In this document: positions 1-46,689 of the stretch, in pieces
How the letters are laid out: each line of letters begins with the position of its first letter
Position numbering within the stretch: position 1 is the first letter of the stretch
DNA from: Limonium bicolor
Lineage: Eukaryota; Streptophyta; Magnoliopsida; Caryophyllales; Plumbaginaceae
DNA length: 64,000 nt
Direction of reading: 5' to 3'
NCBI GenBank assembly: GCA_023374045.1
Contig: CM041780.1
Coordinates: 95,265,005-95,329,004 of the forward strand
Position numbers and translations under genes: made by a program
Notes under the pieces: generated by a model
The model's database searches: none
What the model was told of the DNA's origin: nothing
Seen by the model: only the letters and a program-made list of their open reading frames with translations

Positions 1-1198
1 CCACTAATGACATGGAGGCTAAGTATGTCACCATCATCGAAGAGCTGAAAAGCAAAATCAATTCCCTTGAGGTTGGTCATCAGGAAAACATTTCAGGAAA
101 GATTGCTGACTCTAGGAACGAGCATGGCCACATCGAAGTTAACTCCATTGGGGCCCAGGGTACGCAAGGATTCGTAGGTGAAGCCTCCCCAGATCACCAG
201 CTAACTGCAGAACTCAAGAAGGCTCTGAAAAGGATCGAGCGCATGGAAAAGGCTAGCAAGCCGGCTGGTTTTGATTACTCCTCTATGGCATCGTACCCCG
301 AGGTTGATCTCCCCCCAAAGTTGAAGTTGCCCACACTTGCTCTATACAAGGGTTCCTCAGACCCGCAGGTCCATCTGGCGATGTTCGATAGGGAGATGTC
401 CATCCTCAGGTTGAATGACATGCAAAAGGCCAAGGTCTTTGCCCGTTACCTCGATGAAACACCTCAACGTTGGTATTTGACTCAGAGGATGAACACCAAA
501 ACCTATGAGGAGGTTTGTGGGGCTTTCTTGCACCATTTCGAGTATGCTAAAAATCTCGAAGTCACCAGGTCCGACCTTGCCAGCACTCGGCAGAGAGACA
601 GTGAACCAATGTCCGACTTCATCAAACGGTGGAGGATGAAGGCCGCTGCTATGCCTACAAAATGGATGAGCAAGAACAGATTCGAATGATTGTGGACAAT
701 ATGCAGAGACAATACAACAACGAGCTGAGTTGCACATACTTCCCTAATTTCGACATGCTGATGGGACAGGTAAGAATCATGGAAGAAAAGATTCACAAAG
801 GCGAGCTAAAGCTGGAACAACCCAAAGCCCAGGGTGTGAGTATCGAGACCTTTAAGTCAGGACCGGCCAAAACAGCTCAAGTTTCATACCAAGTGAGCAC
901 CATACAAAAACCCAGTGCTGTAAAGCAGAACATCAAGGCCTCACCCCGATCCAAGAGGTTCTCTACACCGAGACAGTTTACCGACATTGGCCGGCCTCTC
1001 AGTCAAGCACTCGTGAAGCTACAAGAGCTAGACCTACTACAGCCTCTCACACCTAGCCCTGGGATCACCCAAGCCGGGGAACATCTCCATCAATTCTGCC
1101 AGTTTCATCAACTACCAGGACACAGTACTGACGACTGCAGAACATTGAAGCACAAGATTGAGGACCTTATCGAGCAAGGACTCCAGTTTGTCGAGTAG
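1..1198 (+). pseudogene. gag: Gag of element A1, frameshifted
   Basis: This is the capsid/nucleocapsid polyprotein of a Gypsy-type element. Reading is open from the window edge to 689, then continues in another frame from about 650 to 1198; a one-base indel near 657 separates them. It matches the intact 419-residue Gag at 47975-49234 throughout, including the retrotransposon-gag core (LYKGSSDPQVHLAMFD, then RWYLTQ). It ends in a zinc knuckle of spacing CX2HX4HX4C (CQFHQLPGHSTDDC), followed by LKHKIEDLI. By comparison with that copy, roughly 20 N-terminal residues are outside the window; the first methionine at 12 is internal. Known for the family: Gag packages element RNA in cytoplasmic particles. 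This copy cannot make a full protein. Confidence 0.85.
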
Positions 1199-2310
1199 GC
1201 TAGTGTCTAGTTGCATTTTGCTTTCTCAATTTTTCTTTTCTATTTTGTAAGGGGTTTATGATATTTCCATTTTAATGAGGCTTAGATGTTCGAATTTCAG
1301 TCTCTTGTCTTTTCGATTTACAATCTCAAGAAAAAAATGTTTGTTCATTTTGCACCTTCAACCAAATCATCTTTCAAAACTAATGTTCATCTTCTGGCAA
1401 TTGAATAAAATGATTTGTCTTTTTGTTTCCAAAAGGATGAACATGTCCAACCAAACGCCACAGCTCACCCCTATGCATCCAAACAAACCACATACAAATG
1501 TTGTCATAAACCCTGGACTAATACTGGGGGCAATCTGAGTTTAAAGACCAACCACGATTATTTCTTTTGTTTAATTGTGTGAACAAGTCTCAGAGTGAGA
1601 ATTCACGAGAGTGTCTTGAGCGGAAAAACCATGAGTGAACGGGCGTGTCATTTTTACACGACTCCGGTGGGACCACATACGAAGGAAAATGTAAATGGCA
1701 TAACTCCGACCGAAGGAGATAATTTGTAAATTTACTCTTAGACCTGCGAAAAGTAACAAAGAACGGATACACAACTCAGGAATGACGAAGCACCTAGGTA
1801 CAGCACCACATAGCCAAAAGCTTGTAAACCCTGTCATTAAACCCTAGGCACCCCCGCTGAGCCTTTCATATATCCCTTTTCGATATTATGAACTCCACAA
1901 AATAACCCAGCCAACGATGAATGTCCGACCCGGTGACCAAAGGACGCGAGGAGTCCGACTCTCAAATAACGTTCTCATCAGTCCAAAGAAGCAACGCCGC
2001 TATCAGCATGACAAAGTGATCCGCAAATGGTCCCAGAGTGACACAGGATCCAAAAAGCTCACATCAAAACAGCTCTCGAAGCCCAAAACCGGGAGACACA
2101 AGAACCCCGAAGGCGAAGTCAAGAAAGGACAAAACAAAGAGGCAAACCCAAAGTGCCTCGAAGAAATCCAAATGACAAAGAGAAGAGAAATGGTGTAAAG
2201 GACAACTTCAAAAGTCCAAGTCCAGAAGCTCGAAAACAACGTCAACACAAAGCAGCTAGACGACTTCAAGACAAAGAAGATGAATCCGAGAGAAGACACA
2301 AGGTGCAGCT

Positions 2311-2613
2311 TTGGTCACCCATTTAGGCTCCACATACCTCAAATATCCCTCCATGATCCCGTCGTCTTTCATCACACCCTATGGCCACGTTATAAGCTCT
2401 GAAGACTTCCGACTTGATAGTTGTGTGTCCAATCACGTGAAAGTAACAGATCAAATGTGTAAATCCATCAAATATCAAATTCAATGGTCTAGAGGTTATG
2501 ACCATGAGCGAGAAATGAGTGCAAACACCAACCACGTTGAGTGTAGGATAGGAAGCACCACATCAAAGCATAAGCCTCGACCCTGTGAGGATGAGACTTG
2601 TTCGCACGTTTAA
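2311..2613 (+). other. 100-codon open frame shared by A1 and B
   Basis: An open frame of 100 codons beginning MVTHLGSTYLKYPSM has an equally long counterpart in B (46690-46992, minus strand) with about 11 amino-acid differences and no indel. The corresponding part of A2 (about 6870-7180) is interrupted. No domain is recognised and there is no membrane segment or motif. It sits far downstream of gag in the 3' non-coding region, so translation would need reinitiation or a separate transcript. It may simply be open by chance in two recent copies. Confidence 0.2.
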
Positions 2614-2630
2614 TCAAAGAAAATACTGGG

Positions 2631-2657
2631 GGCAATTGATCGTTCCGATCAATTGCC
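2631..2657 (+). other. Perfect stem-loop 1 of A1
   Basis: Arms ggcaattgatcg and cgatcaattgcc (12 bp) enclose the 3-base loop ttc. The 5' arm overlaps the purine-rich motif ctgggggcaat. B has the same structure at 46646-46672 with one base pair exchanged on both arms (T-A here, C-G there). A2 carries a decayed version at 7181-7207. Confidence 0.7.
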
Positions 2658-2696
2658 ATGAACTCTAGCTCAGATTGTCCTAAGGAAAATACTGGG

Positions 2697-2722
2697 GGCA
2701 ATTGTTGGTTCCAACAATTGCC
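2697..2722 (+). other. Perfect stem-loop 2 of A1
   Basis: Arms ggcaattgttgg and ccaacaattgcc (12 bp) enclose a 2-base loop, 39 bases after stem-loop 1. It is again fused to an upstream ctgggggcaat motif. The same hairpin is present in B at 46579-46604 with identical arms, and a degraded one lies in A2 at about 7251-7277. Confidence 0.7.
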
Positions 2723-2759
2723 ATGCCAACACCAATTGAAACCTAAAGCTTGAGCACCA

Positions 2760-2890
2760 CCATCCCACCACAGGCATAAGCCCTTACCACCACATCAAAC
2801 ACCACAAGCCCACATAAGCCCTTACCTTCACTTCATACACCACACAGGCCCACATAAGCCCTTACCTTCACATCATACACCATACCCCCC
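2760..2890 (+). repeat. Short ~40-bp tandem repeat (A1)
   Basis: Two to three imperfect units of about 40 bp contain caggcccacataagccctta. The same motif is expanded to five copies in A2 at 7340-7540. In B it is seen only as scattered variants around 46380-46560. Confidence 0.6.
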
Positions 2891-3177
2891 GACGGCATGT
2901 TCATCTTGTAGGAGATAAATTACAAGTCCGAAGTCTATAGTTAGGAGATGATAATTTCACTTTCCTTTTCACTAAACAAAATTTTCTTCAAACACTACCA
3001 CGTTTGGCACATTTTCCAACGATTTCTTGTTTTGGACAAGTTTCCTACATACACTTTGATTGTAATTTGACATGCACATCATCATAGCCACGTTTGGCAC
3101 TTTCATAATCAACTTTTCATGATCATTTGCATAAAGTTTACCTTGCATCCGTCTGCATGAAACTCCTCATCATAGAC
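2891..3177 (+). other. Unique 3' non-coding stretch of A1
   Basis: There is no reading frame or array. The motif ccacgtttggca occurs near 2999 and 3091 and again near 3872, and related gccatgtttggca/gccaagttcggca motifs flank the array in B (about 46140 and 46230). It probably belongs to the hypervariable 3' region. Confidence 0.4.
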
Positions 3178-3825
3178 TAGAGATACAGATTCTCACCCCG
3201 AGGATACAGATTCTTCAGAGATACAGATTCTCACCCCGAAGATACAGATTCTTCAGAGATACAGATTCTCGCCCCGGAGATACAGATTCTTCAGAGATAC
3301 AGATTCTCGCCCCAGAGATACAGATTCTTCAGAGATACAGATTCTCACCCCGAAGATACAGATTCTTCAGAGATACAGATTCTCACCCCGAAGATACAGA
3401 TTCTTCAGAGATACAGATTCTCGCCCCGGAGATACAGATTCTTCAGAGATACAGATTCTCACCCCGAAGATACAGATTCTTCAGAGATACAGATTCTCAC
3501 CCAAAGATACAGATTCTTCAGAGATACAGATTCTCGCCCCGGAGATACAGATTCTTCAGAGATAGATTCTCACCCCGAAGATACAGATTCTTCAGAGATA
3601 CAGATTCTCGCCCCGGAGATACAGATTCTTCAGAGATACAGATTCTCACCACGAAGATACAGATTCTTTAGAGATACAGATTCTCATCCATAGATACAGA
3701 CTCTTCAGGGATACAGATTCTCGCCCGTAGATTCAGATACAGATTCTCACCCGTAGATTCAGATACAGATTCTCACCACGAAGATGCAGATTCTTCACAG
3801 ATACAAATTCTCACCTGAGTAGAAG
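3178..3825 (+). repeat. 38-bp tandem array (A1)
   Basis: About 17 head-to-tail units are built from two half units, agatacagattcttcag and agatacagattctcacccc(ga), with a combined period near 38 bp. Units drift toward the 3' end (3680-3825). The array occupies the slot between the 40-bp repeats and the gtagtc repeats. The corresponding slot in A2 and B holds different, unrelated arrays. Confidence 0.9.
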
Positions 3826-4165
3826 AACTCACCCTCAAGCTTGTCATAAGTCTTACCCACTTCCTTAGCACCAGCCACGTTTGGCACTCTCAGTCCTTAA
3901 CCTTTTACACACACTTCGGAATAGGTTCCGGTCCCTAGATGCACCTAGGTCTTACAATTCATCATCACATTAAGCACATTTCACTCATTATAGGTAGTCA
4001 ACGCCTTAGAATAACTTGACATCATTTTCATCGTTTAGGTAGTCAACGCCTTAGAATCGCTTGACATTACTTCATCTTATAGGTAGTCAACGCCTTAGAA
4101 TCGCTTGACATCTTCTCATTCTCACTCATAGGTAGTCGGCGCCTTAGAATAGCTCGACGCAATCT
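3826..4165 (+). repeat. gtagtcaacgcc repeats (A1)
   Basis: From 3990 there are four units of about 45-49 bp starting aggtagtcaacgccttagaa. The same unit recurs in A2 (8400-8600) and B (45060-45340), so unlike the upstream array it is shared by the family. 3826-3989 shows no further feature. Confidence 0.8.
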
Positions 4166-4243
4166 GCATATAGGGCCTTTTAAGATCCAAAATTTTAGGG
4201 TATCACTCAGGCATCAACTAGTCTTTTCATCTTCATTACAAAG

Positions 4244-4264
4244 CCTAGTTGACGGGGGGCAATC
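4244..4264 (+). promoter_or_regulatory. Polypurine tract of A1
   Basis: The sequence gttgacggggggcaatc directly precedes the LTR start tgttataccc. The same tract is present at the mirrored position in B (44955-44975). This is the expected primer for plus-strand DNA synthesis. Confidence 0.75.
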
Positions 4265-5035
4265 TGTTATACCCAAAATTTCAACCCCCCCCGGAGTGGT
4301 CTCTAAGGCATACGTGTTACAAAGGGCAAAGTGGTCAAAATGCACCAATGCAGGATTTTCCAAGGACATTATCGGGGTTTCTATTTTCATATGACTTGTT
4401 CATTATCTCCAAACACTTCCAAATATCATAGTCATTATGAAAGGTATTTCATGATTTTCTGATAATATTTATTCTGGAAATTTAGCTTTTAATTCATATT
4501 ATAAGCTAATTTCTTTAATTAACACATGAAATAACCTCAAAATAGAAATAATAAAAGGTTTCCAAAATTAAAATAAAATTGTCACATGGTTAGAATGACT
4601 ACATACAGTCATAAACCTGAAATTATTTTATTTGGAACCTTATCCCAAATTTAAAGAGAAAAATTCAATCATTTTTGCAATTTTCTCTCTCCTCCAGAAA
4701 ATACCGAAATCGAAACAAAATGTCATGCAATTTTAACACAACATAGAGGATGATTTTTAGAGACTAATGCCGTTGGAATTTCGTTATTTCGACTTTCCTA
4801 TAATTAGTTATGAATTATGAGAGATTCCATATTGTGCGATTTTTATCTAATCGATTATTTATCAAACTAATCCGATTCCAACTCTCAAAATTCTTAAAAA
4901 TGATTCTTTACCTTCAGTTAAATTTTCATAATTTTTATCGGCTTGCAACATATTCTAAAAAATCAGATTCCCTTAGAGCACAAAATCAGTCTTTTAGATA
5001 AAGATCTTGCTCTATCAATTTGACCATGCTATTTC

Positions 5036-5044
5036 TATAAAAGG
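5036..5044 (+). promoter_or_regulatory. LTR TATA box (A1)
   Basis: TATAAAAGG occurs about 770 bp into the LTR. The equivalent site is TATATAAA at 9219 in A2 and TATATAAGG at 51713-51721 (minus) in B. It is the likely start region of element transcription. Confidence 0.55.
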
Positions 5045-5753
5045 ACCCCCCAAGAACGAACTAGGGCAAAAGGGAGAACACCTCCAAAGTCAGAGAACAC
5101 AGCCACGAACCTTCTTCCCACGTTTTTACACTTCCAAGCCTCAAATCAATACCGAAACACTGCAGAAATCACCCCAAAATCACCAAAAACTCATCCTTTC
5201 TTTTCCTATTGAACTTCCAAGCACCCAAAACACCACAAAATCAGAAGCAAACCGTCCTTAATCATACAAGGAAGAAGAAATCAGAAACTCGGGTCAAAGT
5301 TGAACCAGATCGGCTACCAACGACGTGTTCGAAGTTTCCCGACGTGAAGGAACAACCAAATCCCGAAGCCAAAACAGGTTAGAATTCGAATTCTTTAACT
5401 ACACTGATCACAATACGCTTCTGGTTGAAATTCCTATTCGAACTAACTTTTCTTTGCTTCTGAATTAAGGTTTGTTTGCGTTTCTGTCCACTAACTTGTT
5501 CAATAAGTTTCGTCCTTAATTCGTAGTCAATTGAAAACTTTTGATCACTAACATGTTTAGAATCTTTCTGGCTACGTACCCATAAATTTTGAGCCAAAAA
5601 CACCGCCGGGAACAGCCTCAACGCCGCCATCCGAGGTCGGTCCGCACCCACGGACGCTATGTCCGGGGTCCCGGACGCTCTGTCCGAAAGCCGGACGCCC
5701 CCGGATGGTGGCGGGATATTTTTATTTTCAAAATTTAGGGTTTTATAAAACAT

Positions 5754-5790
5754 GTCCGGGCCCACGGACGTCCTGTCCGTGGCCCCGGAC
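5754..5790 (+). other. Long GTCCG dyad in LTR (A1)
   Basis: Sixteen-base arms starting gtccggg and ending ccccggac are complementary except for one pair, around a 5-base centre. Further GTCCG/CGGAC motifs occupy 5636-5890. The dyad recurs in the other LTRs of the family. Confidence 0.65.
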
Positions 5791-5985
5791 TTTTCAAAAT
5801 CTCATTTCTGTTTAAATTTGACTTTTCTGTGTAATTAGGTTAACTGGGGTCCGTGGTTTCGGACATTAGGTCCGTGGCTACGGACGGAAACAAAATTCGA
5901 CCTAATTCTGCCTCCGAAACCCTAGTTTAGGTAATTTTAATTTCCACTTTAATTTTCTGTCAAAAAATGCTAAAAAACCAAAAAT

Positions 5986-7339
5986 GAGTCACTCAACGGT
6001 CACCTCATCACCACTCACCACCATCATTTACCATCACACATGTAATCACCCTCCATAAATAACTTGGACTTTCAAAGGTTTGTTAAATAAACCCCACAAC
6101 AATACTGGGGGCAATCTGAGTTAAGGAACGATAATGTTTATTTATTTTGTTTAAACGTGCAAACAAGTCTTTGAGTGTACGTCTCGCGAGAGTGCCTTGA
6201 GTGGTAAAACCATGAGTCAAAGAGCATGTCATTTTTACATGACCCCGGAAAGATCACATTCAAAGGTAAGGTAAATGACATAACTCCGACCGAAGGAGAT
6301 AATTTCTAGATTTATGCTTAACCTATGAAAAGTAACAAAGAACGGATACACAATTATTAGGGATGACGAAGCACCTAGGTACAGCACCACACAACCAAAA
6401 GCTTGTGAACCCTGACATTATACCCTAGGCACCCCCGCTAAGCTTTTCACATACGTCCTCTTTTACAACGCTACAAACTCCACAAAACAAGCCAGCCAAT
6501 GATGAATAACCGACCCGGTGACAAAAGGGAGCAAGGAGCCCGACTTCCGAACAGCAACTTCACAAGTCCAAAGAAGCGATAGTACTACCAGCATGACGAG
6601 ATGATTCGTAAATGGTCCCAAAGTGACACAGGATCCAAATGAGCTCACATCAAAAGCAGCTCTCAAAGTTCAAAACCGGGAAACACAAGAACCCGAGGAG
6701 AAAGAGATTCAAAGAAGGGCAAATCAAAAAGCCTCGAAGAAATCAAAATTGGAAGAACGAAGGTGCAAGGAACACCCAAAAAGTCCCAATCGAAGTCATC
6801 ACGAAGTAGCCCAAACGACTCCAAAACAAAGAAGGCAAGTCTGAAAGACGGTGCAAGTTGCAGCTTTGGTCACCTTTATAGCTCCACACATCCCAAACAT
6901 CCCCTCATGGTCCAGTTGTCACCACACCCCATAGCCACGTTATAAGCTCAAAAGACTTCCGACTTAGTAGTTGTGAATCCAATCACGTGAAAGTAACAGG
7001 TTGAACGTGTAAATCCAACAAAATGTTAAATTCAATGGTTGAGATGTTTTGTCCAAAGGAGGACACGAATGCAAACATTAAACACTTTGAGTGTAGGATA
7101 GAAAGCACCACATCAAGATAAACCCTGACCTTGTGAGAGTAAGACTTGTTTTTGCGCAATTAATCAAAGAAAATACTAGGGGCAATCGATCGTTCCGATT
7201 GATTACCATAAAATCCTAAAAACTCAGATCGCCTTAAGGAAAAATACTATGGCCAATTGTTGGTCCCAACGATTATAACAACGACACCGATGGAGGCCCA
7301 AAAACCCGAAACCCAAAGGTTTAAAACCCTCTCATATCA
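5986..7339 (+). other. 3' non-coding block of A2
   Basis: It is homologous to 1500-2760. It includes aatactgggggcaatctgag near 6103, the caccta/accctaggcacccccgct block near 6370-6440, and decayed stem-loops at 7181-7207 and about 7251. The short frames here (for example 6623-6844) do not match between copies and are not called as genes. Confidence 0.6.
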
Positions 7340-7540
7340 CTCAGGCCCGTCCTAAGCCCTACCTCCACATTCAAACATCCTCAGGCCCCTCCTAAGCCCT
7401 ACCTCCACATTCAAACATCCACAGGCCCGTCCTAAGCCCTACCTTCACATCAAAATTCACTCAGGCCCGTCTAAGCCCTACCTCCACTTCGAATTTCCAC
7501 AGGCCCGTCTTAAACCCTACCATCTCCAGGTTTGACATAA
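7340..7540 (+). repeat. 40-bp tandem array (A2)
   Basis: Five units of 40 bp starting tcaggcccgtcctaagccct lie at 7341, 7381, 7421, 7461 and 7499. It is the expanded version of the A1 repeat at 2760-2890. Confidence 0.85.
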
Positions 7541-7607
7541 ACCCTAATCTTTCTACATTTAGACCCATCATACATTTCACTCACTTTCACTTAGATACTA
7601 CCTTTAG

Positions 7608-8065
7608 GCTCATCATAAGACCTAGTTGCATTCCTTTAGGCTCATCATAAGACCTAGAACCATCCTTTAGGCTTATCATAAGACCTAGATCCAACCTTTA
7701 GGCTCGTCATAAGACCTAAAACCATCCTTTAGGCTCATCATAAGACCTAGTTCCAACCTTTAGGCTCGTCATAAGACCTAGAACCATCCCTTAGGCTCGT
7801 CATAAGACCTAGTTGCATTCCTTTAGGCTCGTCATAAGACCTAGAACCATCCTTTAGGCTCGTCATAAGACCTAGATCCAACCTTTAGGCTCGTTATAAG
7901 ACCTAGAACCATCCCTTAGGCTCGTCATAAGACCTAGTTGCATTCCTTCAGGCTCGTAATAAGATCCTTTAGCTTACCCACTCTCATCAAACACATTGCA
8001 TTCATCTCATCCATATAGGCTCGTCATAAGACCTAATTGCATTATTCAGGCGTGTAACAAGACCT
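7608..8065 (+). repeat. 31-bp tandem array (A2)
   Basis: More than a dozen units of about 31 bp contain taggctcgtcataagaccta. The array is in the same slot as the 38-bp array of A1 and the ggtctcgcactga array of B but unrelated to both. Confidence 0.9.
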
Positions 8066-8400
8066 GGCGACAAAAAAGTTGGCGAGGTGATGGCAATAAA
8101 TCCTCCTGTAGTTATGTCATCTTATTTGGGATCAATGATGGTGGGCGAAGCAATAAGTCCCCAGGGTTTTTACCAGGAGTTATCCCTACACACACAGCTT
8201 GGGGGGGCGACGACAATAAGTCCACATTGGGTCCAGCCAGAGCATTGGTATGGTTTTGGTCCCCAGAAGCATCCGAGCATCATCAGCATCATCAGCATTG
8301 TCAGCATCATCAACATCATCAGCATCATCAGCATCATCAATACATCATCATCATTAGCATTTCAACATCCTTGCATTTGCATACCACCCAGTTTTCACTT
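8066..8400 (+). repeat. Non-coding stretch with CAT/CAG trinucleotide run (A2)
   Basis: 8276-8345 is a run of catcatcag-type triplets. Its inverted counterpart lies in B at 45390-45470. The histidine- or isoleucine-rich frames across it are products of the triplet run. 8070-8260 has motifs such as ggcaataaatcc that recur as ggggacttattgcc in B. Confidence 0.75.
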
Positions 8401-8600
8401 TTTAGGTTGTCAACGCCTTAAATCGCTTGACATTGCTTTATTTCACTTTACTTATAGGTAGTCAGCACCTTAGAATCGCTTGACATCCTCTCAATTGCAC
8501 ATCTTAGGTTGTTGACGCCTTAGAATCGCTTGACATTACTCCATTTCACTTATAGGTAGTCAGCACCTTAGAATAGCTCGACACGACTTGTTAGTCTCCA
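8400..8600 (+). repeat. gtagtca repeats (A2)
   Basis: Four units contain cgccttagaatcgcttgacat and are homologous to 3990-4165 and 45060-45340. They are followed by a polypurine-like tract (gttgatagggggcaat, about 8686-8702) before the LTR. Confidence 0.75.
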
Positions 8601-9218
8601 ATGGCACGCAGGGTCTGTTCATTATCCAAAATTTTGGGGCATCACTCAAGCATCAACCAGACTTTTCATATTCATTACAAAGTCTAGTTGATAGGGGGCA
8701 ATTTTTTATACCCAAAATTTTGACCCCCCTGGCTAGGGACTGTAAGGCTTTGGTGTTGTGAGAGGTACTTCAATCAAGTCACGAGGGACTTCGGCTTGAT
8801 CGGCGCATTCCAGGACATGGGGAGCAGTTTCGTCATCGTCAGGGGCATTTTCCTAATTTTTCAAGGCTCCTAAGACCTCCTATAGGCTTCCGCTCTCCTC
8901 TAAATGATGCTCAAATCAGCTTGAAATGTTTTGAAATTTTAACCCATGATAGAGGATGACATTTTAAGCATGATGGCGTTGGAATTTTGATTTTTCGAAT
9001 TTCCAATAATTTTCTAGCAATTTTTGATTGAATCTGACGAGAAATTAAATTTAAAAATATATCAACATTTAAAAAATTCGATTCCACTTCAGAAAAATCA
9101 TAATTGCCATCCTTGACTCGTGGTTAAAATTTCACAGCAATATTCCTTTGGGAAGTCACTTAATTAAAATGCCAAAAAATCTTACTTTTACTAGATTTTC
9201 TTTATCTTTAAGAAAGTT

Positions 9219-9226
9219 TATATAAA
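9219..9226 (+). promoter_or_regulatory. LTR TATA box (A2)
   Basis: TATATAAA occurs at the position equivalent to the A1 and B LTR TATA boxes. Confidence 0.5.
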
Positions 9227-9911
9227 GGGATAGATCTTTTGATAAAAGGGGAATCTCATAAGTTCAAGAACCCTAGGAAGTCAGAAAGCACTGCCTCCTC
9301 TCTCTCTCTCACGTTTTTCAATACCCCTACCCGAATCATACCAAAAATCCCCCGAAATCATCATCTAAACACGTTTTTCAATTCCCAACGCATCAAACAA
9401 CCTTCAAAACGTGAAGAACACCACCAACAATCAACACCAGATGCTCGGGTCGAACTCAATCCAGAACCGGCATCATCGGAGCCTCCGAAGAATCCCAACG
9501 TGAAGGATCATCTAGAATTTGAAGGTAAAATAGGTTATAATTCTACTTTGCTAACTCCCCACAACCTTATTAACTCTCTGTTAAATTTTGGGCTCAAACC
9601 AACCCTTTTCGGCTTCTGTATTGCTAATTGCTTTTGTTTCTACATAGTTACTTGTTTGTCAAGTTTCGTGCATAATTAGATTTCAAACTGCAATCTTTCA
9701 ATTACTAACGTATTGTATACCTTTCAGGCTACACGTACATAATTTTTTAGCCGAAAACACCGTCGGGAACCACCAGAAAACCCTTGTCCATGGGTGGTCC
9801 GGGATCTCGGACCTATGGTCCTGGACCACGGATGGGTTGTCCATGGCAACGGATACCCACGGACTGCGGCGGAATTTTAAAATTTTAAAAATTTAGGTTT
9901 TGCTAAACTAT

Positions 9912-9948
9912 GTCCGGGCCTACGGACACCCTGTCCGTGGCCCCAGAC
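9912..9948 (+). other. Long GTCCG dyad in LTR (A2)
   Basis: This is the same dyad as at 5754-5790, with a few arm mismatches. It starts gtccgggcc and ends ccccagac. Confidence 0.55.
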
Positions 9949-10581
9949 TTTTCAAATTTGCGTTTTTATTTGAGTTCTGTTTTCGTAATTATTTAAATCA
10001 ATTGGGGTCCGTGGTCTTGGACATTAGGTCCGTGGCTACGGACGTAATTAAAATTTGACCTAATTCTGCCTCCGAAACCCTAGTTTAGGAATTTTCAGAT
10101 TTCACTTTAATGTTCTATCAAAAAACGTTAAAAATAAAAAAAATCAGAAGCGCGCACTTAGGTTAAAAAATGATTCATAATAAGCCGTAATTAAACCAAG
10201 TAGAGGAAAAACAACTTCTAGGGGTAATGAAAGTAATTGAACCCTAAATAAGTTGTAAACCAAGCCCCTGAACCCAAACTCTCTTATCCTAATTTGATCT
10301 AGGTAAAAATTAGGTGGAGACTCATGATAGGTTCCAGTGAGCTAGCTTAGGTTTTAATAATTAATGTTATATGACATAGTTATTAAACTTAGGTTATAAG
10401 TGGACCTAAAACCCGGTTAGATCCTAATCAGCTTTAATCAACATAGGATAGGGTTTAAAATCGAGGCTCACACCCAGTACACGGCGAGAGGATCAGCTCC
10501 AGGTATATACTTTGTCTTGTTAAATTTAGTTTTGTTTCTAATTACTTTTAATACTAACGTGAAATTTATACTTTACTATAG

Positions 10582-11074
10582 TATTGGGATGAGACAGCTC
10601 CGCTTATCTTAAGCCTTGCACCGGAGAACAACTTGAGCTGGCCTACCGGCTTCCCCGCCTGGGCGGCTGATAGGCTAAATATGGCCTTTGAGTATTATCG
10701 GCTTAATGTCAGTACCACCCCTGATTTGCCCACACGTCACACAGGAACGCTAACCAGCCTTATGCTGGCATGGAGTGGTACATCGCAGGGCATCACACCG
10801 AGGGCTTAGGCCAAGAGGGAGGGTATGTACCGTATACACATGGAGCAGGCACATCGGCATGGGGATGATGGCGGGCTCGATGATGATATGGGAGGACGTG
10901 GAGATGAGAGGGGAGGACGTGGTGATGGCAAGGGAGGACGTGCTGATGGCGGTGCTAGGTATAGTGGGGTGGTGGTGGGGTGGGTATGATGGGGGTGGGT
11001 TTGGTGGGGGTGGGTATGGTGGGAGTGGGTATGGTGGGGGTGGGTATGATGGGGGTGGGTATGGATATTTTTAG
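10582..11074 (+). pseudogene. Degraded plant-mobile-domain-like fragment with Gly-rich tail
   Basis: A typical intron precedes it: a donor after cagctccag at about 10500 and an acceptor ctttactatag at about 10581. The frame after the acceptor reads YWDETAPLILSLAPENNLSW and is then shifted. Another frame near 10765-10830 reads AGMEWYIAGHHTEG, resembling the E-WY-x-H pattern near the end of plant mobile domains. A Gly/Asp/Arg-rich tail and GGG-Y repeats follow to 11074. The family link is a weak inference. It lies just outside the A2 LTR, in front of the MULE remnant, and may be MULE cargo. Confidence 0.3.
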
Positions 11075-22339: not shown

Positions 22340-23220
22340 GACAGCCTGCGGCTCACCGGCCGGAGCTTATTTTCAAGGCATAACAGCCTTTGGCTCGTTG
22401 GCCGGTGCTTACTTTCAAGGCATGATAGCCTGCGGCTCGTTGGCCGGTGCTTTCTTTTACTTTCAAGGCATGATAGCTTGCGGCTCGTTGGCCGGTGCTT
22501 TCTTTTACTTTCAAGGCATGATAGCCTGTGGCTCGTTGGCCGGTGCTTTCTTTTACTTTCAAGGCATGATAGCCTGCGGCTTGTTGGTCGGTGCTTTCTT
22601 TACTTTCAAGGCATGATAGCCTGCGGCTCGTTGGCCGATGCTTTCTTTCAAGGCATGATAGCCCGCGGCTCGTTGGCCGATGCTTTTTTTTACTTTCAAG
22701 GCATGATAGCCTGTGGCTCGTTGGCCGGTGCTTTCCTTTACTTTCAAGGCATGATAGCCCGCAGCTCGTTGGCCGGTGCTTTCTTTTACTTTCAAGGCAT
22801 GATAGCCTGCGGCTCGTTGGCCGGTGCTTTCTTTTACTTTCAAGGCATGATAGCCTGCGGCTCGTTGGCCGGTGCTTTCTTTTACTTTCAAGGCATGATA
22901 GTCTACGGCTCGTTGGCCGGTGCTTTCTTTTACTTTCAAGGCATGATAGCCTGCGGCTCGTTGGCCGGTGCTTTCTTTTACTTTCAAGGCATGATAGCCT
23001 ACGGCTCGTTGGCCGGTGCTTTCTTTTACTTTCAAGGCATGATAGCCTGCGGCTCGTTGGCCGGTGCTTTCTTTTACTTTCAAGGAATGATAGCCTGCGG
23101 CTCGTTGGCCGGTGCTTTCTTTTACTTTCAAGGCATGATAGCCTGCGGCTCGTTAGCCGGTGCTTTCTTTTACTTTCAAGGCATGATAGCCTGCGGCTCG
23201 TTGGCCGGTGCTTACCTTTA
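22340..23220. repeat. 48-bp tandem array in element C
   Basis: About 18 units of 48 bp contain gcatgatagcctgcggctcg then ttggccggtgctttc, with small deletions near 22600-22690. Because 48 is a multiple of 3 and the unit is nearly stop-free, at least four overlapping frames stay open across it (up to 295 codons). None is a real gene. It sits just downstream of the integrase stop. Confidence 0.95.
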
Positions 23221-23267
23221 CTCTTTTCTTTGAAAAACAATACCTCTTTATTGAAGAATCATGAATT

Positions 23268-25291: not shown

Positions 25292-26377
25292 CTAATGCAA
25301 ACAAGATTTCTCTATGTTAGTATACTGTCCTTCTGTTGGGCTCAAAATTTTACCGGTATAGTAGACTGGTACCTCCCTTTTCTCTTCCATGATCAAGACA
25401 GCTGCAACCGCCCAATCTGTTGCGGACAAATAAAGGTAGAGGTCTTGGCCAGGGGCAGGCATGCCCAATTTAGGCATATCCCGAAGCATTTCCTTGATCT
25501 TTTCGAATGCGTCTATACACAATTTGCTGTTCTTCCTTAGAATATTGAAGAACGGGATTGACTTTTCCTGAAGCTTGGAACAAAACCTGCTTAACGCCGT
25601 GAGTCTCCCGTTCAGAGCTTGGACATCTTTGATATTTTTCGGAGGAGAAAGGTTGAGAATTGCTTGACTCTTTTCCGGATCTACTTCAATACCTCTTTGT
25701 CCAACAATGAAGCCGAGAAACCTTCCTTTAGTCACACCAAATACACACTTCTCCGGATTCAGCTTGATTTGATATTTGTCCAGAGTATCGAATGTTTCCT
25801 CTAAATCTTTCATGTGCTGCTCTTTTGACGGGCTTTTTACGACTATATCGTCAACATAAGCTTCCACATTCCGGGTAAGTTGTTGACAAAATACCTTGTC
25901 AATCATTCGCTTAAAGGTAGCTCCTGCGTTCTTCAGACCAAAAGGCATTACTTTGTAACAAAATGTTCCAGCTGAAGTGATAAAGGATGTTTTTTCCGAA
26001 TCTTCTTCTTTCATTTTTAACTAATTATAGCTAGAGAAAGCATCTAGAAAACTTAACACAGAGCTCTGAGCAGTTGAAACCACCAATCTATCTATTGATG
26101 GTAGGGGATAGAAATCTTAAGGACATGCCTTATTTAAATCTGTGAAATCCACACACATTCTCCACTTTCTGTTTGCTTTTTTTACCATGACAACGTTAGC
26201 CAGCCATCGTGGGTATGCTACCTCCCGGATGAATCCAGTCTTGAGGAGTTTTTGAACCGCGGTTCGTGCAGCCAAATCTCTTTCTTCCCCTATTACGCTT
26301 TTCCTTTGCCTAACCGCCGGATGCCTTGGGTCTACCCTGAGCTCATGCTGGATAACGCTTGGGTCTATTCCAGGCAT
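25292..26377 (-). pseudogene. pol: Reverse transcriptase of element C
   Basis: Two frames (26377-26117 and 26014-25292) give the RT fingers and palm: WRMCVDFTDLNKACP, then TSFITSAGTFCYKVMPFGLKNAG, then the active site YVDDI at about 25847-25858, then FLGFIVGQRGIEVDPEK. It continues into the first RNase H (YLYLSATDWAVAAVL). In-frame stops between 26117 and 26014 inactivate it. Confidence 0.9.
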
Positions 26378-26898: not shown

Positions 26899-28427
26899 TG
26901 ATAAGTGTCCAAATGAGCATATTTATTAGGTGTATTTCATGTATAATATTAGCACTTTTCTTGCTCATTTCTCCACTTCGGTTGATTTTCCTCTAGTTTA
27001 TGTTTTATTGTTTATCTCACAAAATTATTGGTTTAACATGAGGAAAACCAAGCCGGGAGTGAAGTAGACGAAGAGACGAACGCGTAGGCGCAAACGGCTC
27101 AGAAAACGGAGTCCAAACGAAGAAACTAGGGCCAGTCAAAGTTGGAAGGAAAATAGGTCAACACATATTGCAACCGCCTGGTATAAGGCGGTTTGGGAGG
27201 CGGACAAGCTACAACCGCCTGGTATTGGGCGGTAACCGCAGGCGGACGTGAGTAAGAACTCGCGCGCGCAAGAAACATAGACACAACCGCTCATATAGGC
27301 GGTTCCACAGGCGGTCATCAAGCGGACAACACACAACCGCCTCATATAGGGCGGTTCCACAGGCGGACAAGGGTAAATCGCGCCCGAAACAGTTTTCTTC
27401 TTCGCGCGCCGACTCTGCAACTCGCCCACTCGCCCACTGTCTCTGCAACTTATCCATCTACCCCATCACGCGTTGATCTCTGTCCCCTGCAATAAATGAA
27501 GCAATCAATGCTCAATCACGTACGGATCTGCCTCTGCTAATTCTCTATATACCCCAGCACCAATACTGCAAAAAACACACCACCACGCACGACTGTAGTC
27601 TGAAGAATATTTCACCACACTCATCCATTCGCTTCACTTTTATTCCTCCCGTATCACCACAACAGTCCACACTCACGCAGTAACAAAAGAAATAGAAGAG
27701 CAGCAGTGAGAGCTAGAGCAGACCAGTTCTTCCTCTGAATTAATGTCAAAATCTATCTGTGTAATCTTCTTATCTCCGTTAATGTCTGAGTAATTTTCTT
27801 TTGTATCCTAGGATGGGGGTTTGATTTCTAATATTACGTAAATAATATTTATCACCTGTTTTCTCTTATTTAACTTGTTTTAATTCCTTTCAACTAATAT
27901 TGCTAAATGTTTTGCGCGACAAACGACTACATTTATTTGGTAACTATCAACATATGATTTTGAGATAGTCTAGGTACCACAAAGGAATTAATCTTAGTAT
28001 TTACACTCCGGACTGAGCAGGAAAATATTAAGGCTTTTATTAAGAGTTCGTAACTGACAATTATTAACTCTAATAGGCAATAAATAATTGAGACAAGGTT
28101 ATATGTTTAAGTAATTTAGGAAATTCCCCCGCTATCCTAGGATACATTTTTCCATCCACATCAATTAATTCACCTTTTAACTGTTTTTATTATTTCTGTA
28201 TTAATTTAACAACAAATCAAGCTTGCCTCCGGCTAAACCCCTTTTTACAGTTTTTAAGTAACTACCAAGACTAGGGTAAATTGAACAATCTCCCTGTGGA
28301 TACGACACTTGTTTTACTACTACGACCGGGATTTTGTTTGCAGCCCGACATTTAATTTGAGTTTTAATTTCTTTTCTTTCTTTTCTTTAATTACACCACT
28401 TTAACCACTCAGAAATAACACTCTGCA
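26899..28427 (+). repeat. 5' LTR of element D
   Basis: It begins tgataagtgtcc and ends actctgca. It contains a cluster of short dyads aaccgcc/ggcggtt (27177-27365, for example 27335-27356). It matches 32981-34517 with small indels and substitutions, so a moderately recent insertion. Frames inside it are not called. Confidence 0.92.
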
Positions 28428-28430
28428 AAT

Positions 28431-28447
28431 TGGCGCCGTTGCCGGGG
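28431..28447 (+). promoter_or_regulatory. Primer-binding site of element D (tRNA-Asp type)
   Basis: TGGCGCCGTTGCCGGGG starts three bases after the LTR. It is complementary to the 3' end of plant tRNA-Asp as I know it, including the CCA tail. Confidence 0.85.
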
Positions 28448-29005
28448 AGATTGATTCCATCAATTTCCCTAGTTTCCGGTAGTTCACCTGTTTTATTATA
28501 ATAATCTGTCAATATTTCTTGTTAATAATCTAACCTGGACATCGGACTTATAATCTGACTTGGACATCGGACTTCTGACCTGACTTGGACATTTGACTTC
28601 GGACTCTGGACATCTAACTCCTAACATCTTAATATTATTGTCATTCGTTCCATTGTCATTTCGTTCCATTGTCATTTCGTTCCATTGTCATTTCGTTCCA
28701 TTGTCCTTTCTTTCCATTGTCTCTAACTACTAACTTTAAATTTCCTGTCATTTCGTTCCATTGTCATTCTTTCCATTGTTATTTCTTTCCATTTCCTTAA
28801 CATTTAATTTCCATTGTCCTTAACATTTCTTTCCATTGTCATTTCAATTTTCTGTCATTTCTTTCCATTGTCTCTAACTACTAACTTATAATTTCCAGTA
28901 CACTAACTCCTAACGTTTATCAGCCTAACCAATATTTCTGTCTTTCTTATTTTATTTACTAACTAATTTTGCAGTTTCTGTCAAACCACAAGTTATCTTC
29001 TGTGC
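28448..29005 (+). repeat. Leader of element D with ~17-bp repeats
   Basis: 28636-28870 repeats cattgtcatttcgttc many times with drift, and 28540-28620 repeats gacttggacatcggactt. There is no reading frame. It is likely the 5' untranslated region upstream of gag. Confidence 0.7.
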
Positions 29006-30581
29006 ATGCCAAATACTCGAACCCGAGGCTCTCCACCTATCAGTCCGAGCCCCGAACCCGAGCGTACTTTATTTCAAGCGCAGAGAAACCTGAGAAATCA
29101 AGCCATGGCCAATAACGAAGTTATAAATGAAATGGACCATGCAATTCAACCAGAACACCGTGCCTTATCTGATTATCACCAACCTAACACCGAAGGAAGA
29201 GCATCAGCCATAGTTCTCCCCGAACTAACACCAGAAGAAGCCGGACGATGGGTTTTCAAAACCCACTACATCACCGCCGTCCGGGATCTAGGCAAGTTTA
29301 GTGGAGCGAACCCAGATGAAGCCCCAAATCATCTGAGTCTCTTCCTAGACTTTTGCAATTCCTTTGGTCAAACCGGCAATGTCAAAGAAAGAATTCGACT
29401 CCAACTTTTTCCTCACTCATTATCGGATTCAGCAAACCGGTGGTACCGAAGCCTTCCCTCCCGATCAATAACCACATGGCTTCAAATGGCCCAAAAATTC
29501 CTTGCCAAATACTACCCAACCAGTAGAACGAGGCAATTGATCGGTGAGATCAACACTTTCTGTCAAGAGCCAGGAGAGACGTTGTACGACGCATGGGATA
29601 GATTCAAAGATATGCTAATGAAGTGTTCCCACCATGGTCTTGACGATCAATCCCTCTGCCTGTCATTCTTCAACGGTCTGGATGATGGGAACCGACTACT
29701 CGTCAATTCCTCTGCAGGAGGAAGTTTCATGATGAAATCTCCTAAAGAAGGAATGGACCTTCTCGAAACCATGACGAGCAATACGAGACAGTGGACGAGA
29801 TCCAAAGGAAGAACGCCACGAGCAGCAGGCCTACTCCATGTTGAGCCTACAGATCATTTATCAGCTCAGATCTCGTCCCTTGCAAAGATGGTGGAAAAGC
29901 TAAACACGTCACAAAACGAAATCGTAAAGACAATAGCTTCCCCACCTACAAGTTCATCGTCAGTTCCACCAACAGAAGGATGTGTCATATGCGCTGGTCC
30001 TCACGAAACCCATCAGTGCGAAGGCAAAGGCCAGTACGAGGAAGTACAATTCATAGGAAACCGCCCCGGTAATTCCTACAACAATAACATCAACAACAAC
30101 TATCCATGGAGAAATCACCCGAATTTCTCATGGAAAAATAATGATCAGAACCAAGGAGGGCAGAACAACAATTCCAATGCCTATCAGGGGAACCGACCCC
30201 AACCAAACTCTAATATGGGTTACAGAGCACTAGGTGCCCCTCCAGGTTTCCAACAACAACAACAACAACACACAACAACCATCTTCATCCTCTTCTGATC
30301 CAAACGCAGAACTCAAAGAGATGATGAAGGGATTCATGTCCATAACTCAGAACCAGCTTTCTGCGCAAGAAGCCTTCAACCAGAAAATCGAAGGAAAATT
30401 CAATCAACTTGCAGAACATCTTGCTCGAAGACCGCCAGGGGCTCTCCCCAGCCAAAATGAACCAAATCCAAGAGAGCAAGCCAAGTGCATCTATGTGAAG
30501 GAGCACGATGAAGAAAGACGGAGGTGGCTAAAACAGTTACGATTCCAGAACTACACCCTTCCCTCCAAGAGTGGGTTGTAG
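29006..30581 (+). pseudogene. gag: Gag of element D, frameshifted at a CAA run
   Basis: A 430-codon frame (29006-30298) starts MPNTRTRGSPPISPSPEPER. It holds the Athila-type gag core (LHLSLFLDFCNSF-like block, RLQLFPHSLSDSANRWYRSLP, QEPGETLYDAWDRFKD) and a zinc knuckle CX2CX3HX4C (CVICAGPHETHQC, about residue 325). At a CAA-triplet run (about 30250-30275) the frame shifts, and the protein continues in the frame 30234-30581 (SSSSSDPNAELKEMMKGF). The break is at a slippage-prone repeat. The start at 29006 fits the position about 560 bp after the primer site. Confidence 0.88.
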
Positions 30582-31008
30582 CAATCGAAACTTCCAAAAG
30601 GAATGTAGCTGAACTTGAAAGCACCGCCAATCTATAAAAATCGTATTCAATCTGAGAATACCTACCTTGAGCACTTGGTGGCTGGTTATGAAAACGAAAA
30701 GCTCGACTTCGAAGAAGAAGAAGAGGTTAAGGCGATAACCTTGAGAAGCGGTAAGAAAACCGACGAGATTCACATCCCGCAACAATCAGAAGAATCCAAA
30801 GAGGATAGTGAAGAAAAAGCTGAGGCCCCAGAGAAAAGACATCTCCAAACCTCACTATTCCACCAGCTTCAGAACCTTCTTCACAAGAACCGCCTATACC
30901 ATTTCCTCACCGACTCCAGAAGCAGAAATTGGATAATGAATATGGTAAGTTTCTGGCAATGCTGAAGCAACTAACGTCAATATACAGTTTGTCGACCTCA
31001 TTGCCAAA
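30582..31008 (+). pseudogene. Gag-protease linker of element D
   Basis: The frame 30615-30965 contains EEEEVKAITLRSGKK, the conserved Athila segment before the protease, then an acidic stretch and a frameshift. Stops at about 30580 and 30965 break continuity with the neighbours. Confidence 0.7.
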
Positions 31009-31776
31009 ATGCCAAACTATGCCAAATTCCTCAAACACCTCATATCCAACAAAACTAAATTGGCCGAAGTCGGTACGGTACCTCTCAATGTAGCTTGCTC
31101 AGCTACTCTACAAAAACCACTACCTTCAAAATGCAATGATCCGGGCAGCTTCACTATTCCAGTCACAATTGGTAGCACCTCATTTCCATACTCCTTATGC
31201 GATCTGGGTGCCTCCATTAATTTGATGCCCCTCTCCACTTTCAAAAAGCTGGGAATTGGAGAGATGAAAAAGACTAAGATGACCCTGCAACTGGCAGATG
31301 GTTCGGTAACATACCCAAGCGGAGTGGTGGAGGATGTTATCATTAAAGTGGAGCACTTATACTTCCCATGCGATTTTGTCATTCTAGACATCGAAGAGAA
31401 CTCCACTACACCTCTCATCCTTGGACGACCATTCCTTGCCACAGCCGATGTGCATATTTGGGTAGCCCAGGGGAAAATCACCCTTCAAGCTTATAACGAA
31501 AAGCTGGAGTTTGCATCAGGAAGATCTCCAGATAGCAAATCCAAAGATCTCAAGTTCGTAAGGGATACTCAATCATCATCATCCCCACTTCTGTTTATCA
31601 CCCTTCCAGACGGCATGTCTATTACAGAGTTACCACCACCAATCCCGGACGAAGAGCGGGATAAGAAAGAAAACATGCATCCCGGTGGACTCTCAAAAAC
31701 ACCATCGAGTCATGCTTTGGATCTACCCCTCATAACCACCCCCCAGGATCGATCTAACGACAAAGCGTCTAGCTAA
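31009..31776 (+). CDS. pro: Protease region of element D
   Basis: The open 255-codon frame starts MPNYAKFLKHLISNKTKLAEV. It contains DPGSFTIPVTIG, then the active-site block CDLGASINLMPLSTFKKLG, and then PLILGRPFLATADVHI. These are the conserved blocks of Athila aspartic proteases, with DLG in place of the usual DSG/DTG. It cleaves Gag-Pol in the particle. The frame ends at 31776 with no RT after it. The ATG used is internal; in the parent it would be part of a longer polyprotein. Confidence 0.85.
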   Translation: MPNYAKFLKHLISNKTKLAEVGTVPLNVACSATLQKPLPSKCNDPGSFTIPVTIGSTSFPYSLCDLGASINLMPLSTFKKLGIGEMKKTKMTLQLADGSVTYPSGVVEDVIIKVEHLYFPCDFVILDIEENSTTPLILGRPFLATADVHIWVAQGKITLQAYNEKLEFASGRSPDSKSKDLKFVRDTQSSSSPLLFITLPDGMSITELPPPIPDEERDKKENMHPGGLSKTPSSHALDLPLITTPQDRSNDKASS

Positions 31777-32959
31777 AGACGTTAAAGAAGGGCAGCTTTC
31801 CGGGAGGCAACCCGGACGAACTTATCGTTTATATGCTTTTATGCTGTTTTAATTTTCAGGTTCCCTTTAATTTTATTTTTGCTAAACTTTTAACCCGTTT
31901 GTAGTATGGTTGCTTCTAGTGTCTTTTGCAGTGCAATTTCATGACTACACCGCAACCAAGCTACGCTACTTGAGGCTGAAGCTCAAGTGTGGGGGACCTC
32001 TTATAACGCAAGCAAAAATAATATCAGGGGAGTACCAGTTTCTTTAACCTTGCTTTTATTTAAATAAAATATGCAGAGGAGAATTTATATGCTTAAATGA
32101 ATATTCGTGAGCTTCGTGTTCTCTCTATTTTATCTACTTACCGAAAAGGCCTTCTGAAACTTCCCTTGTTTTTCTGGTGAACAATGAGGACATTGTTCAA
32201 TTTAAGTGTGGGGGAGTGTGCCCTTTTCGGTGACATTTTATGCTAAAATGCTTAATCTCTCTGCTTATCTTGCGTTTGTCAAATTCAATATCGTGAACCC
32301 TTTATGTGTAGGTTGTTCTCTTTAAGAATAAATATTGTTATGAATTGTGGGATAAATGGTATTAAATGTACAAATATACAAAATTTTAAAATTTTGATTA
32401 CTTTTGAGGAGCATTTTTATGCGGTGTGACCAAATGATCTGAAATGGTTGGATTTTTATTGCTCAGGGGTTCTTTCTGTCTTCTTTCTTAGGGATTGCTA
32501 AGGGGTGCTTCTCTGTCAAAAAAAAATATATACAAAAAATATATAAGGGACTTGCGAGACACCATTGGTAACCAACAAAGAGAGTTGAGTGTTCTTAAAC
32601 GAAGGCTTAATGCCTACATATTATCTTCTCATCTCTTATGCAAAAGTGAAACAAATGCATAATTCTATTTTTCCTTTTGTTTTCTCCTCAATGCCCATTC
32701 TTGAGAGAAGTTGGCCATGGTAAAAGTTCTCAAAGTCACCTTAAAAAGAAGCATTGAAGTACTCCGGATCATACCCCGAAACTCTAATTTTTATTTTTGC
32801 CCTGAGTACACCTATGCCACCAGTAGGTGATGGATCACACTCCTCTAAAAAGTTTAAGATCATGTACTATTGACTTTTTTATCCTACCCTTCATAATAAT
32901 ATTTGTTAGTATTGAGCATTCCCTACTTACTTGGGTATGTGATTTGCTTGAGGACAAGC
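31777..32959 (+). other. Non-coding 3' region of element D
   Basis: No RT, integrase or envelope-like frame is present. Two aagtgtgggggac/ag motifs (31985 and 32204) resemble the true polypurine tract at 32968. An A/T-rich run with tatatacaaaaaatatata lies near 32520. Confidence 0.75.
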
Positions 32960-32980
32960 AAAAAGATAAGTGTGGGGGTG
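32960..32980 (+). promoter_or_regulatory. Polypurine tract of element D
   Basis: aaaaagataagtgtgggggtg directly precedes the LTR start tgataag. Confidence 0.8.
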
Positions 32981-44954: not shown

Positions 44955-44975
44955 GATTGCCCCCCGTCAACTAGA
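44955..44975 (-). promoter_or_regulatory. Polypurine tract of element B
   Basis: Minus-strand gttgacggggggcaatc abuts the 3' LTR, identical to the A1 tract. Confidence 0.8.
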
Positions 44976-45059
44976 CTTTGTAATGGAAATGAGAAGGCTA
45001 GTTGATGCTTGAGTGATACCCCCAAAATTTTGGATCTTAAAAGACCCCACATGCAATTG

Positions 45060-45340
45060 AAGTCCGACTAGTTGTGTCGAGCTGTTCTAAGGCGCTGACT
45101 ACCTATGAGTAAAGTGGAAGGGATGTCTAGTGATTCTAAGGCGTTGACTACCTATGAGGATGATACGATGTCAAGCTATTCTAAGGCGTTGACTACCTAT
45201 GAGGATGATACGATGTCAAGCTATTCTAAGGCGTTGACTACCTATAATGACTGAAATGATGTCAAGCCATTCCAAGGCGTTGACTACCTAAAATGTGAAA
45301 ATAAGATAATGTCAAACGATTCTAAGGCGTTGACAACCTA
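45060..45340 (-). repeat. gtagtcaacgcc repeats (B)
   Basis: About six units of ctaaggcgttgactacctat (plus strand) are homologous to 3990-4165 and 8400-8600. Confidence 0.85.
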
Positions 45341-45389
45341 ACGAGTGAAAATTGGGTGGTATGCAAATGCGAGAATGCTGAAATGCTAG

Positions 45390-45470
45390 TGATGCTGATG
45401 ATGCTGACGATGCTGATGATGCTGATGATGCTGACGATGCTGATGATGCTGATGATGCTGATGATGCTCG
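45390..45470 (-). repeat. Trinucleotide run (B)
   Basis: gatgatgctgatgatgctgac-type triplets form the inverted counterpart of 8276-8345. Confidence 0.85.
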
Positions 45471-45640
45471 GATGCTTCTGGGGACCGAAACCCGTTCCAA
45501 TGCTCCTGGTTGGTATACTATGGGGACTTATTGCCTCTGCCCACCAACTGGGGTGCTGGGATAACTTCTAGATTACCAAGGGACTTATTGCCACTGCCCA
45601 CTAGTTGTTTCTCCCAAAAGTTGACATGAAGATGGGGACT
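45471..45640 (-). other. Spacer with ggggacttattgcc motifs (B)
   Basis: Three copies of a gggacttattgcc-ctgccc motif match 8070-8260 of A2; A1 lacks them. Confidence 0.5.
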
Positions 45641-46570: not shown

Positions 46571-46578
46571 GCTGACAT

Positions 46579-46672: not shown

Positions 46673-46689
46673 CCCAGTATTTTCTTTGA

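Follow-up and report, generated by a model that had tools for sequence, protein, structure and literature searches.

The twin hairpins of element A1 go back to one cassette, AAAATACTGGGGGCAATTG joined to a palindrome, of which they are two copies that have diverged. The hairpins are real and their host context is ordinary, and a single matched base change between element copies is weak evidence that their shape matters. Judging from the arrangement of the sequence, a fold-back or template-switch duplication around a copy of the polypurine tract may well have made the cassettes, without selection on structure, a reading that we favour tentatively. Gag-only elements depend on foreign enzymes to copy their RNA, and a defined cassette of hairpin and primer tract would be a concrete handle on how such elements get copied. 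If the fold-back reading is true, a matched base change between copies can stem from copying and is no proof of a functional RNA.

The host family consists of gag-only retrotransposons

The 64-kb window (the whole stretch of DNA that was analysed) contains three copies of one LTR-retrotransposon family, A1, A2, and B.

1-5985, plus strand: element A1; 5' side cut by the window start, 3' LTR match stops at 5985
4252-4264, plus strand: polypurine tract of A1, ACGGGGGGCAATC, directly upstream of the 3' LTR start TGTTATACC at 4265
6089-10472, plus strand: element A2; 5' truncated, LTR from about 8705
43187-52224, minus strand: element B, a complete gag-only LTR retrotransposon
47975-49270, minus strand: gag open frame of B; 431 codons stop to stop, Retrotrans_gag (PF03732, E 5e-6)

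B is an LTR retrotransposon with near-identical LTRs (43187-44954 and 50464-52224, 97.8% identity), LTR ends of the TG...CA type (TGTTATACC...GGCTCACA), and a 5-bp target-site repeat, TGTTG, on both sides. The predicted priming site TGGCGACTCTGCTGGGGA lies three bases (GAC) past the end of the 5' LTR, and the polypurine tract GACGGGGGGCAATC is followed by TGTTATACC, the start of the 3' LTR. Gag is the sole long internal frame. The next frames of at least 100 codons measure 168, 143, 115, 107, 104, and 103 codons, and pol is absent from B, where no internal frame beside gag reaches 170 codons; among the frames of B, the Pfam run covered gag alone.

By anatomy, the family is a gag-only element of the TR-GAG type, in agreement with the sequence-only reading, which had called the element gag-only. 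The TR-GAG type (Chaparro et al. 2015, known through the citing paper PMC8704663) shares with B the two LTRs, the single gag frame between them, and the lack of pol; B also has the priming site behind the 5' LTR and the polypurine tract before the 3' LTR. Features of the present family beyond this anatomy, as far as the citing paper describes it, are the duplicated cassettes of polypurine tract and hairpin and the 3' UTR built as an inverted repeat.

The other two copies are less complete. The gag of A1 is split into two reading frames by a shift near 660, and the 3' LTR match of A1 runs to 5985 without the LTR end present in B. No gag match is found in A2 in the window self-comparison. A protein search against a 5.8-billion set returns two distant plant gags with 24-27% identity.

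The hairpins far exceed chance expectation

The hairpins of A1 and B are located in the 3' untranslated block of the element, 3' of gag.

2631-2657, plus strand: hairpin 1 of A1; 12-bp perfect stem, arms 2631-2642/2646-2657, loop 3 nt, RNA MFE -16.7 kcal/mol
2697-2722, plus strand: hairpin 2 of A1; 12-bp perfect stem, arms 2697-2708/2711-2722, geometric loop 2 nt
7181-7207, plus strand: hairpin 1 of A2; decayed, with a C-A mismatch and a G-U pair
7252-7277, plus strand: hairpin 2 of A2; decayed, outer three pairs gone and one G-U
46579-46604, minus strand: hairpin 2 of B; perfect, same sequence as hairpin 2 of A1
46646-46672, minus strand: hairpin 1 of B; perfect, C-G at pair 7

The coordinates and pairing that the sequence-only reading gave for A1, two perfect 12-bp hairpins with 39 bases between them, are correct, and the two hairpins that it placed in B are confirmed on the minus strand. 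When folded as RNA, hairpin 2 of A1 forms 11 bp and a tetraloop. Single-strand folding energies range from -14.9 to -18.5 kcal/mol for the hairpins of A1 and B and are -9.7 and -6.1 kcal/mol for those of A2.

Perfect 12-bp arms separated by loops of 2-8 nt occur at 8 start positions in the window, which fall at 5 sites: the four A1/B hairpins and one at 42969. Under the same criterion, 100 dinucleotide shuffles yield 0.07 start positions on average and never more than 3. The A1/B hairpins are thus far beyond chance, yet inherited, so that they count as two objects and not four. Rfam gives no match above the curated cut-off in positions 1-10600 of the window, the side of A1 and A2.

The two hairpins derive from one cassette

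In a six-hairpin table that was aligned by hand with the gap set in the loop (MAFFT put its gap in the stem), AAAATACT(G/A)(G/T)GG(G/C)CAAT is common to all six hairpins, and ATTGCCATG, on the 3' side of the stem centre, is common to the four hairpins of A1 and B. All four begin within ACTGGGGGCAAT, as the sequence-only reading had it. Hairpins 1 and 2 of A1 and B differ in the centre of the stem, and their loops differ by one base. Pairs 9 (A-T/T-A) and 11 (C-G/G-C) are double transversions between hairpins 1 and 2. Pair 7 reads T-A, C-G, and C-G in hairpin 1 of A1, B, and A2, respectively, and T-A, T-A, and T-G in hairpin 2. Across the six hairpins, double changes occur at 3 of the 12 pair positions and 68 of the 72 cells pair, two of them as G-U; all four failures are in A2.

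The hairpins are accompanied by copies of a motif that resembles the polypurine tract.

1520-1536, plus strand: motif 1, AATACTGGGGGCAATCT; polypurine-tract-like copy without a hairpin, same in A1, A2, and B
2622-2636, plus strand: motif 2, AATACTGGGGGCAAT; runs into the 5' arm of hairpin 1
2688-2702, plus strand: motif 3, AATACTGGGGGCAAT; runs into the 5' arm of hairpin 2

The 15-mer AATACTGGGGGCAAT occurs three times in A1 as a direct repeat, in the two cassettes and at 1520, and GGGGGCAAT is the core both of the true polypurine tract in A1, A2, and B and of the internal motif copies. All 17 positions of motif 1 are the same in the three copies, and its flanks show pairwise differences at 25/82, 29/84, and 31/82 positions (30-38%). 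This constancy suggests purifying selection at least on motif 1. Since the motif is unchanged within diverged flanks, the best sign of constraint is in the motif and not in the stems. The homology of the two hairpins to each other and the hairpin-less third motif copy at 1520 are both absent from the sequence-only reading, as is the block-wide inverted repeat described below.

The 3' untranslated block is an old inverted repeat

1524-2684, plus strand: 3' untranslated block of A1, an inverted repeat that is old and imperfect and whose predicted fold joins its two ends

The best stretch of the inverted repeat pairs 1559-1592 with 2625-2592 (82% over 34 bases). In none of A1, A2, and B does any of 1000 dinucleotide shuffles match the score of the outer arms, which were picked after the repeat was seen. 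The whole arms score 64, 58, and 63 against shuffle maxima of 54, 56, and 59 (200 mononucleotide shuffles each), in tests that are not independent, as the three copies are related. The majority sequence of the three copies is a better inverted repeat than any single copy, with a score of 81, which would fit a decaying ancestral duplication.

The minimum-free-energy fold pairs the first 120 nt of the block with the last 220 nt through 55, 72, and 49 pairs in A1, A2, and B, respectively; in A1 and B, hairpin 1 is a side arm inside the long stem and hairpin 2 is outside it. The consensus fold of the block has 272 pairs, 13 of them with a double change, and its stability exceeds that of column-shuffled alignments with z -5.0, or -3.8 when the hairpin columns are removed (40 shuffles each). 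The long-range structure has 95.6% paired cells compared with 27-44% in slid versions, a figure that says little given that the structure is derived from the same three sequences on which it is counted.

Within the repeat, every copy has about as many G-U as A-C departures (14/17, 19/16, and 21/22), and lineage changes over the whole inverted repeat comprise 21 G-U, 14 A-C, and 14 transversions. In the outermost long helix, the single changes are 5 G-U and 0 A-C, alongside 4 transversion breaks and 2 double changes. Covariation in the long stem is seen at 3 pairs, against 2.3 +/- 1.1 in shuffles and about 2.5 expected from independent rates.

The sequence-only reading described the non-coding DNA around the hairpins as otherwise drifting, which is inaccurate. 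A1 (1499-2831) and B (46466-47630) are 88-91% alike over the block, compared with 77% in matched gag, 84% in the tail, and 85-86% in the LTR. This high identity may reflect either mosaic exchange between copies or strong constraint. Overall, the block differs by about 23% from that of A2. Near 47219, B lacks about 170 bases that are kept in A1 (1914-2083) and A2. The longest runs of the block that all three copies share without a difference measure 29 bases (1782-1810) and 22 bases (2428-2449) and lie roughly opposite each other in the inverted repeat.

Other readings of the block were considered. An antisense or extra coding frame is rejected, the longest frame overlapping 1200-3000 on either strand being 116 codons, and so is derivation from the LTR, to which the block has no match. 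A nested TIR DNA transposon was considered given the inverted repeat; by eye, no matching target-site repeat is seen.

Fold-back copying may account for the cassettes

The region between gag and the polypurine tract contains direct copies of the tract motif, palindromes just behind them, an inverted repeat, and fast-changing tandem arrays. One process, error-prone reverse transcription near the plus-strand start, could make all four types of feature. Errors near the plus-strand priming site would generate the cassettes as follows. Slippage or strand jumping would duplicate the GGGGGCAAT segment, giving three internal copies beside the true tract. Fold-back copying, a template switch onto the nascent or complementary strand, would then yield the palindromes and the larger inverted repeat. 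The arm-copying step would alter both sides of a stem at once, leaving perfect stems and apparently paired changes without selection. The sequence shows directly that the cassettes are homologous, that the motif is present in several copies, that the block is an inverted repeat, and that differences are paired; a fold-back origin and the lack of a selected function are what we infer.

A double transversion cannot pass through G-U, and one-step copying of an arm fits those between hairpins 1 and 2 better than stepwise compensation. The tandem arrays of the 3' UTR extend over 2775-4158 in A1, 7340-8583 in A2, and 45075-46039 in B. A 44-48-nt array near the tract is common to all three copies and a 9-nt array to A2 and B, and the main arrays have units of 38 nt in A1 (3179-3815), 31 nt in A2 (7601-7964), and 24 nt in B (45721-46039). 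Because the main arrays differ between copies, duplication is taken to be frequent in this region. The balanced G-U and A-C departures and the similar folding of sense and antisense strands (below) also count for a fold-back origin. Counted against it are the constancy of motif 1, the 24 of 24 intact pairs in A1 and in B, the excess of G-U over A-C in the outer helix, and the stability of the consensus fold. No template-switch intermediate or donor event is seen, and the step is read from the pattern.

The available text of PMC8794818 reports that template switching can create and repair hairpins, with several paired changes at once, and that patterns consistent with it are present in microRNA and rRNA genes. 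Relative to simulation, multiple paired changes are enriched there and, as a point against the fold-back origin, paired changes combined with loop changes are depleted; isolated single paired changes are uninformative on the mutation process, a view that applies to the T-A/C-G change here. The hairpins of that study and the present ones share perfect stems and multiple paired differences. The former arise in DNA replication, whereas we propose reverse transcription for the latter. In Tat-lineage elements, 3' UTR tandem repeats are hypothesised to form during element replication (PMC7004042, in its available text).

Tests for selection on pairing are mixed

As an alternative, selection could maintain pairing during copy activity because the hairpins act in cis within the genomic RNA, or within the single-stranded minus DNA (serving, for example, dimerisation, Gag binding, or packaging); we regard this as less probable than fold-back copying but as a serious contender. 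One T-A pair of hairpin 1 of A1 is a C-G pair in B, with both arms changed and pairing kept, a difference that the sequence-only reading had noticed and that is real. Because A2 has C and G at both positions, parsimony suggests that A1 is the lineage in which both sides of the pair changed. Given two arm substitutions, the chance that both hit one pair and restore its Watson-Crick pairing is 1.1% (no CpG effect) to 5.3% (8-fold CpG effect), which favours selection on structure, and so do the double changes at a quarter of the pair positions across the six hairpins.

All 24 pairs are Watson-Crick in A1 and in B. In simulations of independent substitution, with rates that we set at 0.05 and 0.085 (bracketing the local and whole-block A1-B rates) and a perfect ancestor assumed, this outcome has a probability of 0.003-0.09, and the joint outcome with at least one double change has a probability of 0.0007-0.003. 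Against selection, 4 of the 24 pairs of A2 are broken, two are G-U, and none is compensated. The 5' arm of hairpin 1 in A2 is of the C type and the 3' arm is decayed, as had been described, with two 3'-arm changes, one leading to G-U and the other to C-A. Orthologous hairpins provide one covarying pair, from three copies only, and two of these copies are truncated or broken.

The rate comparison between stems and flanks that had been proposed as a check gives a divided result. Arms carry 2/48 substitutions and flanks 7/143 between A1 and B (p=0.60); between A2 and B the numbers are 7/48 and 41/143 (p=0.036, uncorrected), which would be expected of a selected element, and the remaining three comparisons give p=0.12-0.22. 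Four of the five comparisons are thus not significant. Unpaired substitutions as common in the arms as in the flanks had been named as the finding that would speak against selection, and A2 shows this in part.

Folding of the block yields z -2.5, -1.7, and -4.3 for the sense strand of A1, A2, and B and -2.2, -2.3, and -7.0 for the antisense strand. Among the controls, the gag and 5' UTR of B fold unremarkably (+1.2 and -1.5), in line with a selected element, whereas LTR segments of about 1.1 kb reach -4.3 (B) and -2.2 (A2). The folding excess therefore has no strand preference and is not beyond the LTR level. The consensus-fold stability, with or without the hairpin columns, and the single changes of the outer long helix favour a selected element, and the covariation in the long stem, which is not above shuffles, does not. 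Taken together, the paired change supports the proposed selection on structure, and the arms, which are not clearly slower, and the antisense folding do not.

Further copies were sought by pattern scans of viral contigs and genome contigs and by a gag-based scan of viral contigs, and no relative was found. The 11 pattern matches are unrelated: none extends the six pattern-fixed pairs to a 12-bp stem by eye, and a blastn search with the window against them is empty.

Dimerisation sites of known retroelements provide a partial parallel. According to the available text of PMC11381356, dimerisation of yeast Ty3 RNA relies on a short palindrome on the 5' side that occupies the apical part of a hairpin; the Ty3 polypurine tract is base-paired with lower probability. 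Ty3 PAL6, alongside which Ty1 and HIV-1 are described, and the present hairpins both place a short self-complementary sequence in a retroelement RNA hairpin, which lends some support to a selected element. However, PAL6 is near the 5' end and apical in a short hairpin, and the dimer palindromes of Ty3, Ty1, and HIV-1 belong to the 5' end and not the 3' UTR in that source. The present hairpins carry the palindrome in the stem arms, have loops of 2-4 nt, and lie 3' of gag, not near the RNA 5' end as a dimerisation site does.

Extra polypurine tracts and chance are less probable explanations

It is improbable that the three internal GGGGGCAAT copies are extra polypurine tracts for accessory plus-strand priming, each hairpin just downstream setting the primer end or halting the upstream plus strand. 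The presence of GGGGGCAAT in the true tract of all three elements as well as in the internal copies is consistent with such a role, as are the match of motif 1 of A1 and A2 to the tract and LTR start over GGGGGCAATCTG and the invariance of AATACTGGGGGCAATCT. In B, however, motif 1 has CTAAG and no longer matches the LTR start; in A2, motif 3 is decayed and motif 2 has one change; and the part upstream of the core differs from the true tract (AATACT compared with TTGAC, A1 and B). A narrow literature query on central polypurine tracts, limited to plant retrotransposons, yielded no paper.

Similarly improbable is a broader version, in which the whole 3' UTR would serve cis-acting functions as a single domain: a long-range stem would close ~1.1 kb of it, and the additional polypurine tracts, two of which carry hairpins, would act in plus-strand priming and punctuation or in packaging by the element's own Gag. 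Our literature search, outside which most subscription papers lie, returned no description of a cis-acting 3' end made of a long-range stem and extra tracts, nor of any plant element in which internal copies of the polypurine tract are joined to hairpins.

Tat/Ogre-lineage Ty3/gypsy elements have an additional (archaeal-type) RNase H domain (PMC6317226), and the tandem repeats of their 3' UTRs are hypervariable (Macas et al. 2009, via PMC7004042), both sources being taken in their available text. They share with the present family tandem arrays, partly copy-specific, between the gag-side block and the polypurine tract. In contrast to them, the present family has no pol to carry an extra RNase H, and its hairpin cassette lies upstream of the main arrays. 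The hypervariable 3' UTR repeats are thus present, which without pol does not prove the lineage.

Plain chance, in which the perfect palindromes were inherited and A1 acquired two independent matching transitions of the C-to-T type at CpG, is the least likely explanation: both A1 changes are CpG transitions, the second CpG is altered differently in A2, and 1-5% is not extreme for a feature selected from 64 kb, but the double transversions between hairpins 1 and 2 are left unexplained, and CpG sites of the block, counted without the second hairpin CpG, at which A2 differs, have changed at 1/28 (A1) and 2/30 (B) compared with 16/330 and 17/330 other C/G sites. The CpG sites of the block are thus not faster, and low weight is given to deamination at CpG as the source of the paired change.

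Neighbouring features of the window

A second LTR retrotransposon, which we take to be Athila-like, lies at 26899-34514, with LTRs of about 1.5 kb (96.5% identical), TGGCGCCGTTGCCGGGG behind the LTR, gag and aspartic protease frames, and no pol frame of 180 or more codons. A reverse transcriptase/RNase H fragment of another element (PF00078, PF17919) is found on the minus strand at 25292-26020. A 48-base unit is repeated about 18 times at 22367-23222, and both strands of this array have more than one open frame. The 3' LTR of B contains a 22-nt palindrome at 43707-43751, 91% complementary with 1 nt between the arms, around which words of the CCACGGAC/GTCCGTGG type recur by eye.
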